Source: Bacteroidales bacterium
Lineage (GTDB): Bacteria; Bacteroidota; Bacteroidia; Bacteroidales; Lentimicrobiaceae
Length of the DNA stretch: 64,000 nt
Direction: 5' to 3'
Assembly: GCA_024636955.1 (NCBI GenBank)
Contig: JAGXGB010000044.1
Location: 1 to 64,000, forward strand
Numbering within the stretch: the stretch's first letter is position 1; each line of letters starts with the position of its first letter. Below the pieces are notes generated by a model that was not told the origin of the DNA, made no database searches, and worked only from the letters and a program-made list of their open reading frames with translations. This document shows, piece by piece, positions 8,503-60,371 of this stretch. The position numbers and the translations under genes were made by a program.

Positions 8503-8627
8503 ATTCATTTTATTCAACCAAGAATTACGCAAGTATCAACGTAGTTGTAACTATGTATAACATACTATGTTTAATTAGGTTGATACTATGTTTATACTAA
8601 GTTGATACAAGGTTGAATAAAATGAAT
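8503..8627. repeat. 125-bp inverted-repeat element with perfect 17-bp termini and iterated GTTGATAC units
   Basis: ATTCATTTTATTCAACC (8503-8519) is the exact reverse complement of GGTTGAATAAAATGAAT (8611-8627). GTATCAAC appears in the left arm and GTTGATAC twice in the right arm. Confidence 0.75.
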
Positions 8628-8680: not shown

Positions 8681-8790
8681 TTGAACCCCTCGATAAAAAC
8701 TCGGGGACCACCCCTCGATAAAAACTCAGAGACCGGAACGTTGAACAACTTTGAACAACATTGAACCACATTGAACCACATTGAACAATT
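8681..8790. repeat. TTGAAC 10-bp-period array with two nested copies of the 25-bp CCCCTCGATAAAAACTCGGGG hairpin
   Basis: TTGAAC starts at 8741, 8751, 8761, 8771 and 8781. Hairpin copies at 8685-8709 and 8710-8734. Confidence 0.9.
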
Positions 8791-9123: not shown

Positions 9124-9159
9124 TAAATGATTTGCGCATTTCCAGTCCAGGCAACCTGT

Positions 9160-9195
9160 CCCACTTGTCCCACAAGTCCCACTGGTCCCACAATT
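9160..9195. repeat. GTCCCAC short tandem array
   Basis: tgtcccacttgtcccacaagtcccactggtcccac: four GTCCCAC copies at about 9-bp spacing. Confidence 0.85.
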
Positions 9196-10889: not shown

Positions 10890-10976
10890 GTGCGGGAAAC
10901 AACCATTTGAACTACTTGAACTACTTGAACACCTTGAACAACATTGAACAACATTGAACGCGCGAAGCGCTTTGAA
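10890..10976. repeat. TTGAAC array preceded by GTGCGGGAAACAACC
   Basis: tgcgggaaacaaccatttgaactacttgaactacttgaacaccttgaacaacattgaacaacattgaacgcgcgaagcgctttgaac. Confidence 0.9.
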
Positions 10977-51724: not shown

Positions 51725-51956
51725 AACATATATTAATTTAAAAGTGAATAATGTTAGTATAACCTTCGCTTGATAAAATTGTTTGTTATGAAACTAACCC
51801 TCACCAGAAAGAAATGGAAACCCCCTCACCTTCCCTCCCATTGTAGAAGGGAGGATGAAGAGCCTTCATATATATAGAGTTGCAATTACAGCCGATATCC
51901 CATCGACTGCAGCATTTATATCCAAGATGTCAATGAACTTCAATTTATTAGACAAG

Positions 51957-52062
51957 TATAAAGGCTAAAGGCTAAAGGCTAAAGTATAAAGTGGGGTTTG
52001 TTCCCAGAACCCAGAACTCAGAACCAATCTATGCCCTATGCCCTATGCCCTATGCTAATACA
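51957..52062. repeat. Composite short-tandem array chain
   Basis: gtataaaggctaaaggctaaaggctaaagtataaagtggggtttgttcccagaacccagaactcagaaccaatctatgccctatgccctatgccctatgcta. Confidence 0.92.
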
Positions 52063-52093
52063 ATTATGATGCAATCATACCCGATTATTGAAA

Positions 52094-52190
52094 TTGTCCG
52101 GCGTTGTCCACCCCTTGTCAGGTTTTGGCAGTTAAATAACTGACATGATCACTGCCACAGGGTGGACATGTCCGGACAGGTACCTGACAA
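52094..52190. repeat. Hairpin element 1 (TTTTGGCAG core; GTCCGG/GTCCAC/GTCAGG arms)
   Basis: TGTCCGGCGTTGTCCACCC (52095-52113) vs GGGTGGACATGTCCGGACA (52160-52178), 16/19 complementary. Core ttttggcagttaaataactgacatgatcactgcca. Confidence 0.85.
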
Positions 52191-52228
52191 TAAGGCAATT
52201 TTGATGCTAAAGCGATAAAAAAATGGAA

Positions 52229-52335
52229 ATGATACCTTTTGATACCCTGTGTCATGTTTTTTGGCAGAAAACAACTGACACGGGAACTGACACGAAGGTA
52301 TCAAAGGGTATCAAAAGGTATCAAACGGTATAGAA
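52229..52335. repeat. Hairpin element 2 (TTTTGGCAG core; GGTATCAAA-iterated arms)
   Basis: TGATACCTTTTGATACCC (52230-52247) is perfectly complementary to GGGTATCAAAAGGTATCA (52306-52323). Core ttttttggcagaaaacaactgacacgggaactgacacgaa. Confidence 0.9.
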
Positions 52336-52461
52336 TGTGACGTTTTGGCAGGTATTATTCCGGCGAGTAAAATGCGAATGCAGCCTGGTGGAATATCACC
52401 TCATCCCCCCCGCCCCTTCTCCTCAAGTGAGAAGGGGAGCTTCAAAACCGAAAGCGGTGAA

Positions 52462-52773
52462 ATGAACTATCCTGAGATCATCATTTACAGCGTTAACATG
52501 GCAGAATTCCTGGCACCTATGAAACGAAAGGACTGGGATGATGCAGCCGCTTACCTGCTGGAGAAGATAAGGGCACTGAAACTTGCCGGTGCCGATTTTG
52601 CCGCCATTAGTGCCAATACCCCTCACCTGCTTTTTGAGAAGATCAAGGCCGATTCACCCCTGCACCTGATAAGTATCGTGGAAGCAACACGCGAAGAGGC
52701 GTACGTCATTTTGAGCTCGCTATTGGGCGAAAGGAGGAATCTCATAATTACTGAGCATTATTGCTTTATTTAA
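52462..52773 (+). pseudogene. Aspartate/glutamate racemase family fragment
   Basis: PEIIIYSVNMAEFLAPMKRKDWDDAAAYLLEKIRALKLAGADFAAISANTPHLLFEKIKADSPLHLISIVEATREEA matches the internal part of the family. The N-terminal IGGxxW region and the C-terminal half are absent. Confidence 0.75.
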
Positions 52774-52792
52774 AACACTTTTATATATTTGC
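52751..52792 (+). promoter_or_regulatory. Promoter-like block duplicated upstream of two genes
   Basis: ctgagcattattgctttatttaaaacacttttatatatttgc matches 57578-57619 almost base for base and ends in a TATATTTG -7 element. Confidence 0.7.
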
Positions 52793-52852
52793 CGGAACTA
52801 ATAATCTTCAATTGAGGATAATTAGAAACATATGCAATTAAATACAAGCAAG

Positions 52853-53740
52853 ATGTCACTGAAACAAACCATCCTCACAATAGTCCTCCTCTTATCAATA
52901 TTCTCTTGCTTCGCTCAGGATAATGACTCTCTTCAGTTAAAAGCCAATTGGAAGAAGGGGGATGTTAAAGAATTGATCATCATTAAATCAAATCAATTGC
53001 AGATGGCCGATGGAACTCTTAATACACTTCCTGCTGATACAATTGAAGGAAGTTTTCTAATTACCGTTACTGATAAGAACGACAAAGGATATCTGGTAGA
53101 ATGGAAAGTTAATTCAGATTTACCTGATAAAGAAGCATTTCCATATATGACTGACTTTCTTTCTGAATACTACTACATCATACAGACTGATACAACCGGT
53201 CGATTCATTGAGCTCACTAACTGGAAAGAATTGTTGGAACGGGCTGATAAATTAAGATCAATAATTTATGCTGAGATGAAAAAGGAAAAATTGGACAAAA
53301 GTGTTCTAGATGGGTTAATTAATTCTTTGTTACCTCAAAGTAAAGAAGGTGTAGAAAAAGAATGTAATATACTGACAGGCTTTTTTCATGGAATGTATGG
53401 AGAGTCAGTTTCTCTGAATGATTCAGTATCAGAAGAATCTATAACTGTCCCGCATCCATATATCACTGAAGGAGTTCCCGCAACAAAACGAACAATGACC
53501 AAACAGCTGGATAAAGAGAGAATCAGCATAACAGACGCAGTAATCTATGATTATGACAAACTAAAAGAATTGCTTAAAGAGTATATGCTCGGAAAAGAAT
53601 TTTCTGAAAGTAAAACGGAATCATCGAGCGAATGCATCTACAACCAACTAACAGGTTGGGTTGAGAGTGTAACCTTTCATACTACAATGGCTACTAAGGA
53701 CTTTAGGAGTGAGATGAATTTGAAATATTTGATTAGATAA
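52853..53740 (+). CDS. Secreted hypothetical protein
   Basis: Signal peptide MSLKQTILTIVLLLSIFSCFAQ. No recognised family. Alternative start at 52832. Confidence 0.65.
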   Translation: MSLKQTILTIVLLLSIFSCFAQDNDSLQLKANWKKGDVKELIIIKSNQLQMADGTLNTLPADTIEGSFLITVTDKNDKGYLVEWKVNSDLPDKEAFPYMTDFLSEYYYIIQTDTTGRFIELTNWKELLERADKLRSIIYAEMKKEKLDKSVLDGLINSLLPQSKEGVEKECNILTGFFHGMYGESVSLNDSVSEESITVPHPYITEGVPATKRTMTKQLDKERISITDAVIYDYDKLKELLKEYMLGKEFSESKTESSSECIYNQLTGWVESVTFHTTMATKDFRSEMNLKYLIR

Positions 53741-53833
53741 AATCATTATAAATGCCTCTGAGTGCTTGAGGAGATGCTTCCTATTGGGCTGTGAACAATC
53801 CATTCAGTTGCAAGTTTATTACAAAAATCAGGT

Positions 53834-54205
53834 ATGAAGAAAATTACACTCCTCTTTATTCTGCTGTCAGTCATGATTGTAAGCTTTGGCTTTCTTAATC
53901 AAACAGGCACAAATGAAGTTTATGTACTTGTAAAGTATAAAGCCCAGCCAAATAAGAGCGAGCAGGCACTTGTTGCTCTGAAGAATCTCGTAAACAAGGT
54001 AAAGGAAGAACCCAATTACAAAAAGATTATCATCCACACTGATCCTGCTGACCCGACCAACATCCTTCTTTACGAACACTGGGATGATGAAGCTTACTAT
54101 ACAGGCGATCACATGAACACTCCGCACCTGCAGAAATTTATTACTGACTCCCGCGAGTTTCTGGCAGGACCTCCAGAGATCACTTTCTGGAAGGTGGTTG
54201 GATAG
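53834..54205 (+). CDS. Antibiotic biosynthesis monooxygenase-like (ABM) domain protein with signal peptide
   Basis: VYVLVKYKAQPNKSEQALVALKNLVNKVKEEPNYKKIIIHTDPADPTNILLYEHWDDEAYYTGDHMNTPHLQKFI. Confidence 0.8.
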   Translation: MKKITLLFILLSVMIVSFGFLNQTGTNEVYVLVKYKAQPNKSEQALVALKNLVNKVKEEPNYKKIIIHTDPADPTNILLYEHWDDEAYYTGDHMNTPHLQKFITDSREFLAGPPEITFWKVVG

Positions 54206-54261
54206 CTCATGCCTTGCCTCATGGACGTAGCCCGTCACCCCGGCCCATAGGACATATTTAC

Positions 54262-54531
54262 TCAATCATCTTCATCATCATCAAAAGGAGGATTCGGCAG
54301 ATTATTTAAGTTCCTTATGTACCTCTCTTCATCATGTGATTCATCAAATTTCATTGCTCGAAATATCTCCACGCTGATGCATTGAGCAATTAATTTCTTA
54401 GAATCCTGTTCGCTGTATCCCAGGCCGATCAACCTTTGCAGAGTTTTCTTTGTTTCAGGCGGATTATTGGCTTTAAGCTGATTATCAACTGCAGAGATGA
54501 TAGTATCATGTAATATCTTGTTATATGCCAT
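54262..54531 (-). CDS. Small conserved hypothetical protein
   Basis: 89-aa ORF MAYNKILHDTIISAVDNQLKANNPPETKKTLQRLIGLGYSEQDSKKLIAQCISVEIF, acidic tail. Confidence 0.65.
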   Translation of the reverse strand: MAYNKILHDTIISAVDNQLKANNPPETKKTLQRLIGLGYSEQDSKKLIAQCISVEIFRAMKFDESHDEERYIRNLNNLPNPPFDDDEDD

Positions 54532-54582
54532 AGCTGGATGTTTTAGTGAAACTGTTATTGGTTATCAAAAATAGTAATAAAA

Positions 54583-54786
54583 TTAAAGTTTCTCCACCTC
54601 CTCATCCACCGTATCCAAAATTGTCAGATGGAATGAATACTCAAACCACTTCCCGAATAATGCGAAGGTTCTTTTCTTTGGCCACTCGCTTTCATCTGTA
54701 TACCAGTTATTCAACTGATCAGCAAATATCAGATCGAAATTCTTAGACAACCACTTTTTGGCTGATTCTTCATCTTCAAAAATTAA
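54583..54786 (-). pseudogene. 3' fragment of a gene, start lost at a dispersed repeat
   Basis: Minus-strand open frame with no start: LIFEDEESAKKWLSKNFDLIFADQLNNWYTDESEWPKKRTFALFGKWFEYSFHLTILDTVDEEVEKL*. Upstream it runs into stop-containing repeat DNA at about 54795. Confidence 0.65.
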
Positions 54787-54792
54787 CTGGCT

Positions 54793-54862
54793 CGATGAGA
54801 TTCCTCACTCCGTTCAGAATGACTGGGTGCAGGTGCCTTTTGAGCGGAGAGAGGAATCTCCT
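54793..54862. repeat. Dispersed repeat of the CATTCTGAACGGAGTGAGGAATCTC type
   Basis: gatgagattcctcactccgttcagaatgac...gagaggaatctcc. Gives the characteristic spurious translation HSERSEESH. Confidence 0.75.
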
Positions 54863-57075
54863 TATTTAATCTTTTTTGCCCCAACAGTAATCCAAACATC
54901 ATTACCCGGGATTGAAAGATCATACCCGGATTCACTTCCGTAGGTTGTAATCTTATATTTTCCCGGTTCCTCAAGTCTGAACCTAACCAATGGTCCATGC
55001 CAATCGATTATTGCCCTCGCAGTAATGTCAAATGTTTGAGTGAAACTTCCATTAGGCTCAATGGCAACCTGAATTTTGTTTTTATCATAATAACCCGGAT
55101 CTTCTTCCATTAAAGCTTCATTAGCATAGATTTTCATGTTTAAATCATATCTTTCCACCCTCAGAAAAAAAATTGGAACATCCTTGTCTTTCCAGATTTT
55201 AATCGATTTAGTCTTTGAACTAATATTCTTTAAGTTAAAAGTTATAAAAACCGGTTCATTTAATTCATATACTTCCTTATCCGATTGCACTTCCAAACTC
55301 CAAAGTGTTTTGGACAGCATTTCATTTACTTCTTCTTTCAAACGTTCAACTGCAGCCCTTTTTTCGTACAAAGGATATTCATCCAGTAATTTATTAGCAT
55401 AATTTAATGCCAGCCTGTAATATTTAGGCAATTCACTGAATTCTAAATCACAATATGAATATAATTCACTAATCAGGTGATATATCTCGGCAGCATGTTC
55501 TGTATCGGGGTATTTTTTAAGTATTGATTTATACTCTTCAATTGCTTCCACATTATAATAACCTCCATGGTCGTGCGACGCCTGTTCATAAAAATTTATC
55601 ATTAAAAATTTAGCATTATCAGCATATATACTCTCCGGATACAGAACTAAAAGACTGTCAAGAAAATGGAAGGGGTATGCCATATCAGGAAGAGTTGTTT
55701 CATATTTTGGATAAATAACCTGCTTATAAAATTCATAGTATTCAGATCCAAGCTGCCATAGGATTTCATCTTCCGAAAGATCTGGTGAATTTTTAACTCT
55801 TTCTATTTTGTGGTAAAACTCTGAAACAATTTTCACTTCCTTTTTATGGGCATCGTTTCTGTATATTGGAAAATGTTTTTCCAATAATTCATCATACTTA
55901 AGTGATTTACCAAGCTTCAGTTCATAATTTGCCAGGTATATAATGCGTAAGTAATATGCAGCCTTTATCGAATCTTCTGCAACCGAATCGGTCACGAACT
56001 TTTCGAGTTTGACTATTTCATTGAAATTACCAGAGAAATGCACTAAAGTTCCTGTGATGCTATTTATTCTATTCTGAATATAATTAACCGGTGAATTTTC
56101 ATACACGGCATTCAATTGCTTCACTGTATTGTAATAGTCAGGAAAATCTAAATCTTGCAAGTGTAATGCATAAATTACAGAATCAAAGGTCTTTATGTCA
56201 GTTGCCGGATTCCTTATTTTTTGCGAATCCCTGAAAAGGTAACTTCTGTTATAAATTTCAAAGCTGTGCCAGGTGTTAAAATACACGTATTTTGAATCAA
56301 ATCTAAACTTCAGGGCAGGTTTATTAAATGCGAAGTATTCATGTGAGTAACTGCCATTCTCATCCATCTCTTGTAGTATAAGGTATGGTTCATTATAGGT
56401 AATTTTCTCACTAACAATTTTATCATCAGCATTCCATTGCTCAGTCTCAATCTTAGTATTGGTCCTTGTTTTCAAGATTTTATCTCTCTTGTAATCATAC
56501 TCATACTTATCATTGATTAACAAAATACCCGGATAAATTTTCTCAATCTGCCTGACACTGATTTCAGCAATGGAAATACTCTTTGATGAGTTCATAGTCT
56601 TCCTGTTGATCTGATAAATTCCTTGCCAGGTTCCTACAAAAACATCAATGGTATCAATGAAAATAACGGAAACCGGTTTGATTGAAACAAACTCATTGTA
56701 ATTATTCTGATCAATATTATATACTATTAAACCGCGATGAAAGTTAGCTATCCACAAAAGATTTCTATCAATTGAATCCACAACTATACCCTCCTCTTTT
56801 AAACCAAAAGAATATTCATCCCATCTCAATGACAGAGGAGTCCAGGAACTATCTGACAACCTTAGTTCATATGCCGGACCATTGGTATTCAGGATCCACA
56901 CAACATTGGAATCAATCGGAGAAAAGATAAAATTTTCAATGCTTACATTTTTGTTAAAGTACCTGGAACAAGAATCGATCTCCAAACTTATAAAAAGAGT
57001 GTCTTCTGATGAATTTTTGCTGCTTTTGCAGGTGATCAGCAGTATTGAAAGAAGAACAAAGAGATTTTTTTTCAT
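54862..57075 (-). CDS. Lipoprotein with propeller-like N-terminus and TPR-like C-terminus
   Basis: SpII signal SILLITCKSSKN; TPR-like helical segments (YKSILKKYPDTEHAAEIYHLISELY); C-terminal beta domain. Confidence 0.65.
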   Translation of the reverse strand: MKKNLFVLLSILLITCKSSKNSSEDTLFISLEIDSCSRYFNKNVSIENFIFSPIDSNVVWILNTNGPAYELRLSDSSWTPLSLRWDEYSFGLKEEGIVVDSIDRNLLWIANFHRGLIVYNIDQNNYNEFVSIKPVSVIFIDTIDVFVGTWQGIYQINRKTMNSSKSISIAEISVRQIEKIYPGILLINDKYEYDYKRDKILKTRTNTKIETEQWNADDKIVSEKITYNEPYLILQEMDENGSYSHEYFAFNKPALKFRFDSKYVYFNTWHSFEIYNRSYLFRDSQKIRNPATDIKTFDSVIYALHLQDLDFPDYYNTVKQLNAVYENSPVNYIQNRINSITGTLVHFSGNFNEIVKLEKFVTDSVAEDSIKAAYYLRIIYLANYELKLGKSLKYDELLEKHFPIYRNDAHKKEVKIVSEFYHKIERVKNSPDLSEDEILWQLGSEYYEFYKQVIYPKYETTLPDMAYPFHFLDSLLVLYPESIYADNAKFLMINFYEQASHDHGGYYNVEAIEEYKSILKKYPDTEHAAEIYHLISELYSYCDLEFSELPKYYRLALNYANKLLDEYPLYEKRAAVERLKEEVNEMLSKTLWSLEVQSDKEVYELNEPVFITFNLKNISSKTKSIKIWKDKDVPIFFLRVERYDLNMKIYANEALMEEDPGYYDKNKIQVAIEPNGSFTQTFDITARAIIDWHGPLVRFRLEEPGKYKITTYGSESGYDLSIPGNDVWITVGAKKIK

Positions 57076-57270
57076 AAGTATTAAGTCAGGCAATAAATGT
57101 ACGAAATAAAATCAGGTAAAGATGTAAATCACATCCCCATGTTACTAGAATACGTCATTCCTGGCTTCCCGAACCCTCATACGTATAAAGAAATTTCACC
57201 GGGTTATGATTAGAAAACACCGAAAGTGCTGTCAGCACAGGAAGCCATTACTGACTTCCCGGCCAACATT

Positions 57271-57339
57271 ATATATAGAGTTGCAATTACAGCCAATATC
57301 ACATCAGCTGCAGCATTAATTTCCAAGATGTCAAAGAAC
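57271..57339. repeat. Second copy of the 51869-51938 leader block
   Basis: atatatagagttgcaattacagccaatatcacatcagctgcagcattaatttccaagatgtcaaagaac vs atatatagagttgcaattacagccgatatcccatcgactgcagcatttatatccaagatgtcaatgaac. Confidence 0.88.
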
Positions 57340-57427
57340 CAAAATTAGTAGTGAGTCAAGAGTTGTGAGTAGTGAGCTTTTGATTATCATAATGCAACTT
57401 TGATGCTAAAGGTGCCAAAAATTGAAT

Positions 57428-57534
57428 TTGTCGCCCTTTGTCGGTCTTTTGGCAGTTTTTGGCAGAAAAAAGGCATGACACGAAAACTGACACGAAACCG
57501 CCAAAAGGCGACAAAAGGCGACAATAGGCGACAA
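57428..57534. repeat. Hairpin element 3 (TTTTGGCAG core; GGCGACAAA-iterated arms)
   Basis: ttgtcgccctttgtcgg vs ccgccaaaaggcgacaaaaggcgacaataggcgacaa. Core cttttggcagtttttggcagaaaaaaggcatgacacgaaaactgacacgaaa. Confidence 0.88.
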
Positions 57535-57577
57535 GCCTGCCATAGTGGCAGATAATTTCCGCCCATCAGGTTTATAT

Positions 57578-60167: not shown

Positions 60168-60240
60168 AACGCTAAACGCAAACGCTAAACCTTACATTGC
60201 TACGCTTGTCTCACAGGTCCCACAGGTCCTATATGTCCCA
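60168..60240. repeat. AACGCTA and GTCCCAC short tandem arrays
   Basis: caacgctaaacgcaaacgctaaacc followed by gtctcacaggtcccacaggtcctatatgtcccac. Confidence 0.82.
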
Positions 60241-60371
60241 CTAGAAGGGATAGTTAACAGATTAACCCAGAACAAAAAAGAACAAAGAACAATCTTCTCG
60301 TTTTGCAAACAACCAGCGTTAGTAAGTTTTCTTGTGCCGGGGGGTAATAAGTAAACATTTTGTAACTTTCA

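Follow-up and report, generated by a model that had tools for sequence, protein, structure and literature searches.

Composite intergenic repeats with a conserved frame and type-specific inverted arms in two related Bacteroidales species

Two clusters of repeat modules in the window

The window, a stretch of 64,000 nucleotides, belongs to the 3.22 Mb genome of a Bacteroidales bacterium and contains two intergenic clusters, near 52 kb and 57 kb, in which a leader unit precedes one or two modules built of short words that are inverted around a core. Their parts are the following.

51869..51938, minus strand: leader unit of the 52 kb cluster, with boxA-like GTTCATTGACATCTTGG, a small hairpin and then TATATATA; 90% identity to the C23 copy
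51954..52055, no strand: tandem heptamer arrays TAAAGGC, CCCAGAA and CTATGCC between leader and modules, from Tandem Repeats Finder
52058..52093, plus strand: left flank of module 1, a degenerate TGCAAYTTTGATGC motif and then TTGAAA, aligned with 17 other modules
52094..52190, plus strand: module 1, type A; arm words TTGTCCGG / TTGTCCACC / TTGTCAGG, core TTTTGGCAG...ACTGACA, right arm GGGTGGACATGTCCGGACA, end ACCTGACA; sister copies C19, C23, C63 and C16
52193..52228, plus strand: left flank of module 2, GGCAATTTTGATGC...ATGGAAA, from the module alignment
52229..52351, plus strand: module 2, type C; left arm TGATACC twice, core TGTCATGTTTTTTGGCAG...ACTGACACGGGAACTGACACG, right arm GGTATCA three times and a degenerate fourth unit, right end reaching TTTTGGCAG at 52351; sister copies C19, C36, C56 and G008:C155
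57270..57344, minus strand: leader unit of the 57 kb cluster, with boxA-like GTTCTTTGACATCTTG at 57324-57339
57391..57426, plus strand: left flank of module 3, AATGCAACTTTGATGCTAAAGGTGCCAAAAATTGAA, from the module alignment
57427..57551, plus strand: module 3, type B; left arm TTTGTCGCC, TTTGTCGGT, core TTTTGGCAG twice ... CATGACACGAAAACTGACACG, right arm GGCGACAA three times, right end CCTGCCATAGTGGCAG; sister copies C19, C23 and C36

The inverted arms extend over 27 nt with 78% complementarity in the first element, 22 nt with 95% in the second and 33 nt with 82% in the third. As single-stranded DNA, all three are much more stably folded than dinucleotide shuffles (z = -3.9, -8.4 and -5.8, respectively), and none of 200 shuffles equalled the native sequence. 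The preliminary description, which had singled out these three hairpins, placed them correctly, but its coordinates omit the flanks that the modules share and the shared leaders at 51869-51938 and 57270-57344; absent from it as well were the boxA-like leader hairpin, found in seven clusters of this genome, and the single fixed orientation of the modules.

Frame, arm types and distribution of the family

The core pattern TTTGGCAGN{3,30}ACTGACA has 12 matches in the genome, several of them overlapping, and none in the reversed control. Modules were collected by reading the core matches and by searching with the C19 cluster as query. Further copies exist: pattern and BLAST searches yielded 13 modules in this genome, an incomplete MAG of 83 contigs in which diverged copies may be missed, and five in its nearest relative, a congener designated G008. 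At least five arm types (A to E) occur across the two genomes, in modules of approximately 150 bp. This genome has five copies of type A (C71:52.1k, C19, C23, C63 and C16), four of type B (C71:57.4k, C19, C23 and C36) and four of type C (C71:52.2k, C19, C36 and C56), while the modules of G008 are one C, one D, one partial D-like and two E, one of which is partial.

Three parts are common to all types: the left flank, the inner core and the right end. The words of both arms, which lie between these parts, are specific to the type. When the 18 modules were aligned by anchoring them at the start of the left arm, the left-flank motif TGCAAYTTTGATGC was present with at most four mismatches in 13, compared with 3% of random places, and a TGCCAAAAAATGAAA-like stretch directly before the arm was present with at most five mismatches in 10, compared with 5% of random places. 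The frame also includes a third unit TGTCATG (in types C and D), TTTTTTGGCAG, the 3′ core CATGACACGRRAACTGACACG and, at the right end of the module, an ACTGMCA...TGKCAG stem. Each module contains two words on the left and three to four on the right, of 7-9 bp each, inverted about the conserved core. The word units are spaced by 10 bp, one helical turn, in nearly all cases and by 11 in a few. Conservation drops sharply at the linkers of 2-3 bp between words, although the conservation of the words is partly built in, because their positions served as the search key and were hence favoured.

The word of type A is TTGTCC(R/AC), that of B TTGTCGCC, that of C TTGATACC, that of D TTGGCACC and that of E GTCC..AAAGTCC. 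The arms of different elements had been regarded as unrelated, but words A, B, C and D can be aligned as variants of TTG-N2-3-(A)CC, and on this account the types probably derive from one ancestral module. The D word is the same as the core word TTTTGGCA(C/G), so type D may be the closest to the ancestral word. An intermediate is found in G008:C18, where TTGGCAT is followed by TTGTCACCC.

A strict scan for the core across 85,462 species genomes gave one credible match, which is an exact match to the G008 locus; the one other match, in Pseudomonas, sits in a GC-rich, apparently coding stretch and is attributed to chance. Among 60 relatives, the remaining core matches are scattered singles at about the frequency of the reversed control, as chance predicts, and the viral, phage and plasmid collections searched contain no match to the family. 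The family is so far known from only two related Bacteroidales species. With 13 modules and seven leader copies, it is multi-copy, short, non-coding and intergenic, as a MITE would be, and it documents a composite intergenic element that is absent from Rfam 15 and from the phage and plasmid record collections.

Leaders, orientation and genomic setting

Seven clusters of this genome open with a leader, TATATATAGAGTTGCAATTACA...hairpin...GATGTCAAAGAAC, the complement of which holds the boxA-like GTTCTTTGACATCTTG. The leader is followed by short tandem repeats, which are heptamer or TTGTTCAATG arrays, and then by one to three modules, the orientation of which relative to the leader is identical in all 17 leader-linked modules. 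The order of modules varies (A-B-C, A-C, B-A, B-C, B, C and A in this genome; D-E and C-E in G008), and in five of the six clusters examined the flanking genes are divergently transcribed. Folded as RNA, the minus strand of the leader hairpin is the more stable in eight of eight copies, and on this strand the copies differ by two compensatory pairs and several G-U changes; the strand bias and the compensatory pairs indicate that the leader is probably a transcribed structure.

The same 16-mer, GTTCTTTGACATCTTG, occurs exactly in G008 approximately 140 bp before a CRISPR array of 21 repeats, and protection of CRISPR transcripts by boxA has been described in work cited by PMC12691694. Unlike such boxA-containing CRISPR leaders, the leaders of the family precede a hairpin and often a terminator-like stem, and no CRISPR repeats. 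The modules themselves are not CRISPR arrays: they vary in type and spacing, whereas the repeats of a CRISPR array are identical and its unique spacers equally long. For comparison with the boxA-like site of the leader, 16S rRNA was sought in the assembly of this genome, with no match. At three places in G008 (C18, C155 and C142; loci L038, L042 and L159), the sequence after the boxA-like site looks like a structured RNA that is longer and conserved, CCCTAAAGTGTTGTGAAACRCC...TGCATAC...GTATGCA, and has no Rfam match.

One block of the family differs between the two genomes by its presence. The intergenic region between ileS and an endonuclease gene contains a block of approximately 0.9 kb in this genome and none in G008, which has the same gene order and an ileS of 90% identity. 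The block was accordingly gained or lost as a whole. This fits insertion in this genome as well as loss in G008 without proving one or the other, and the family may have been mobile. Some blocks have CTGCC/GGCAG stems near both ends, with no autonomous partner, and the empty site of G008 is too diverged for a target-site duplication to be read; at the clusters of the window, synteny with G008 is too slight for locating empty sites. No transposase, integrase or RAYT gene is linked to the family in this genome, nor are modules linked to the recombinase genes of G008, of which the flanks were also inspected. An integron attC or other recombinase site was therefore rejected as an identity, and the recombinase relic next to one module of G008 is likely a coincidence. 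There, on contig C51 (L118:4560-4680), the C-terminal end of a tyrosine recombinase (LGHENSKTTEIYTHITTRGFDQIKSPLDNLEL) lies directly beside a type E module; next come cassette-like DNA rich in GTTAGC and the reverse transcriptase of a group II intron.

Co-variation of the arms and origin of the types

The local complementarity between left and right arms scored 15.4 for arms of the same module, 14.7 for arms from different copies of the same type, 6.6 for arms of different types and 5.2 for shuffled arms. The earlier observation of a conserved frame with both arms differing together is borne out between types. Replacement of the arms copy by copy, which the preliminary description had also envisaged, is not: same-type arms are nearly interchangeable (within-type permutation p = 0.09), and because they are common to all copies of one type, there is no clear swapping per copy. 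Copies of one type have diverged in the ordinary way from a single ancestral arm, the very pattern that had been named as contrary to the proposal of co-replacement, whereas between types the arms differ together.

Single copies are also informative. In the type C copy of G008, the left arm has TGATATCG in place of TGATACCT, and the two changes are exactly mirrored in the right arm. In C23_B and G8C51_D the two arms match each other's complement perfectly, linkers included. These features are what template switching, as proposed in the preliminary description, would leave, although they do not demonstrate it. In C36_C and C56_C, on the other hand, the linkers are unpaired (CAC and CAA against TTT); since in addition the arms of one module are barely better matched than swapped ones, recent arm-to-arm copying is not general. 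Between types, and in single copies, the arms show coordinated change, which is not general inside types.

The propensity for such arrays extends beyond the family. The window contains 16 arrays of short words, compared with 0.2 in a Markov control, and some arrays of the genome are themselves inverted pairs without the module core (GTCCCAC/GTGGGAC beside ileS, AGTAGTG/CACTACT at C23). Because inverted pairs occur without the core in a genome prone to arrays, inverted word arrays appear to arise here by a general process.

The modules may tentatively be interpreted as a lineage-specific, non-autonomous, MITE-like composite intergenic repeat with word arrays that evolve in concert by slippage and template switching. 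The ancestral module would have had a word resembling the core TTTTGGCA, and its units would have been altered in concert later: tandem slippage could carry a variant word along one arm, and template switching inside the hairpin, a known route by which the arms of inverted repeats are homogenised (PMC8604942, PMC8794818), could transfer the variant to the opposite arm. The flanks and the core would be under some constraint, most simply from a DNA-binding protein. A bolder version, in which each module is a self-homogenising, type-switching binding array, both arms being rewritten by repeated copying within the hairpin and each type possibly being read by its own protein, is unlikely.

Among described elements, the nearest in kind is BrickBuilt (PMC4596501), a MITE of Porphyromonas gingivalis that contains a minisatellite. 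Like the family described here, it is found in Bacteroidales and always between genes, frames its short tandem units with a leader and a tail, is predicted to form long stem-loops, is limited to one lineage and encodes no enzyme. It differs in having a single family of 23-nt direct-repeat units and terminal inverted repeats; the module units are of approximately 10 bp, are inverted around a core and fall into five kinds of word, and the blocks as wholes have at most putative terminal inverted repeats. The REP elements of RAYT (Y1-type) transposases (PMC3733652) are likewise short, multi-copy intergenic palindromes, but the RAYT genes of this genome are flanked by GTAGAGACGC-type palindromes that are unrelated to the modules, and an origin of the family from REP/RAYT was rejected. 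Intergenic heptamer tandem repeats of Bacteroidetes (for example TAACTGA; PMC4679880) resemble the situation in this genome in that short words are amplified between genes, probably by slippage; unlike the modules, they are direct only, without a conserved core or an inverted partner array. Quasipalindrome correction by template switching (PMC8604942, PMC7202029, PMC8794818) is a known mutational route that makes inverted arms alike, but it is known as single events in existing hairpins, whereas the modules are a family of types in which several words have changed on both sides.

The main rival to a MITE-like repeat, itself rather unlikely, is that a family of sequence-specific DNA-binding proteins (regulatory, nucleoid or recombination proteins) recognises the modules as binding-site arrays, with one type per paralogue and words that track its specificity. 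Words one helical turn apart and inverted around a core, the sharp drop of conservation at the linkers, copies with complementary words and non-complementary linkers, the lack of RNA strand bias and the location of most examined clusters between divergent genes are all consistent with protein binding. There is no candidate protein, however, several types stand side by side in one cluster, and the constant spacing would be given equally by tandem amplification alone. It is improbable, and less probable than binding arrays, that selection acts on the modules as transcribed RNA hairpins, which the preliminary description had considered. The modules do fold strongly, adjoin a structured boxA-like leader and differ between types in a compensatory manner, but when both strands were folded as RNA, the plus strand was the more stable in 11 of 16 modules and the minus strand in five (sums of -693 and -664 kcal/mol), in contrast to the consistent minus-strand bias of the leader. 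The modules thus lack the strand-specific stability of a structured RNA. Rfam 15 returned nothing at the gathering threshold for the window and the other loci of this genome, with only chance matches to microRNA families below it, and a scan for Bacteroidota-type promoters found none convincing for a minus-strand transcript across the modules. Given the absence of strand preference, the modules are probably features at the level of DNA.

Two further explanations invoke recombination. Ready-made arm cassettes might have been exchanged between different repeats; the reassortment of modules between clusters and the many other word arrays in the genome would agree with this, but free-standing, core-less arrays of the B, C or D word were not encountered, the words can be aligned with one another as variants, each arm would need a separate exchange on either side of an unchanged core, and the intermediate in G008:C18 argues for stepwise change, all of which makes cassette exchange quite improbable beside binding arrays. 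The att site of phage lambda has a comparable layout, with a core site and arm-type sites, and the modules might by analogy be att sites of a tyrosine recombinase with arm-type sites phased at 10 bp. Besides this similarity, the type E module of G008 that abuts a recombinase tail could be cited in favour. Flanks of approximately 1.5 kb around three recombinase genes of this genome and three of G008 are nevertheless devoid of modules, and the integron core site GTTRRRY is absent at the module ends, so that att sites are a highly improbable identity, well behind binding arrays.

How both sides of a hairpin change around a constant middle is a question that concerns RNA stems as well as binding arrays. 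With five types in two species and copies that serve as replicates, strain-level sequences of this family could separate stepwise compensation, template switching and protein-driven change.

Several other repeats were observed. Arrays of words of 9-11 bp (ATACTATGTTG, AACATTGAAC and TGTCCCACT) lie in the window at 8562-8616, 8737-8788, 9157-9193, 10907-10959 and 60208-60241, and the array at 8.5 kb forms a hairpin with iterated arms (z -3.7). The ileS region has two hairpins (L089:580-720 and L089:1155-1300) with three to four iterated GTCCCACCA / GTGGGACNN units per arm and without the TTTTGGCAG core. This genome has three RAYT-type transposase genes (L043, L054 and L063), one of which is flanked by several GTAGAGACGC palindromes. 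At approximately 54.7 kb of contig C36 (G000:C36, locus L156), about 13 near-perfect GTGGTTA heptamers follow a terminator and adjoin other heptamer words.
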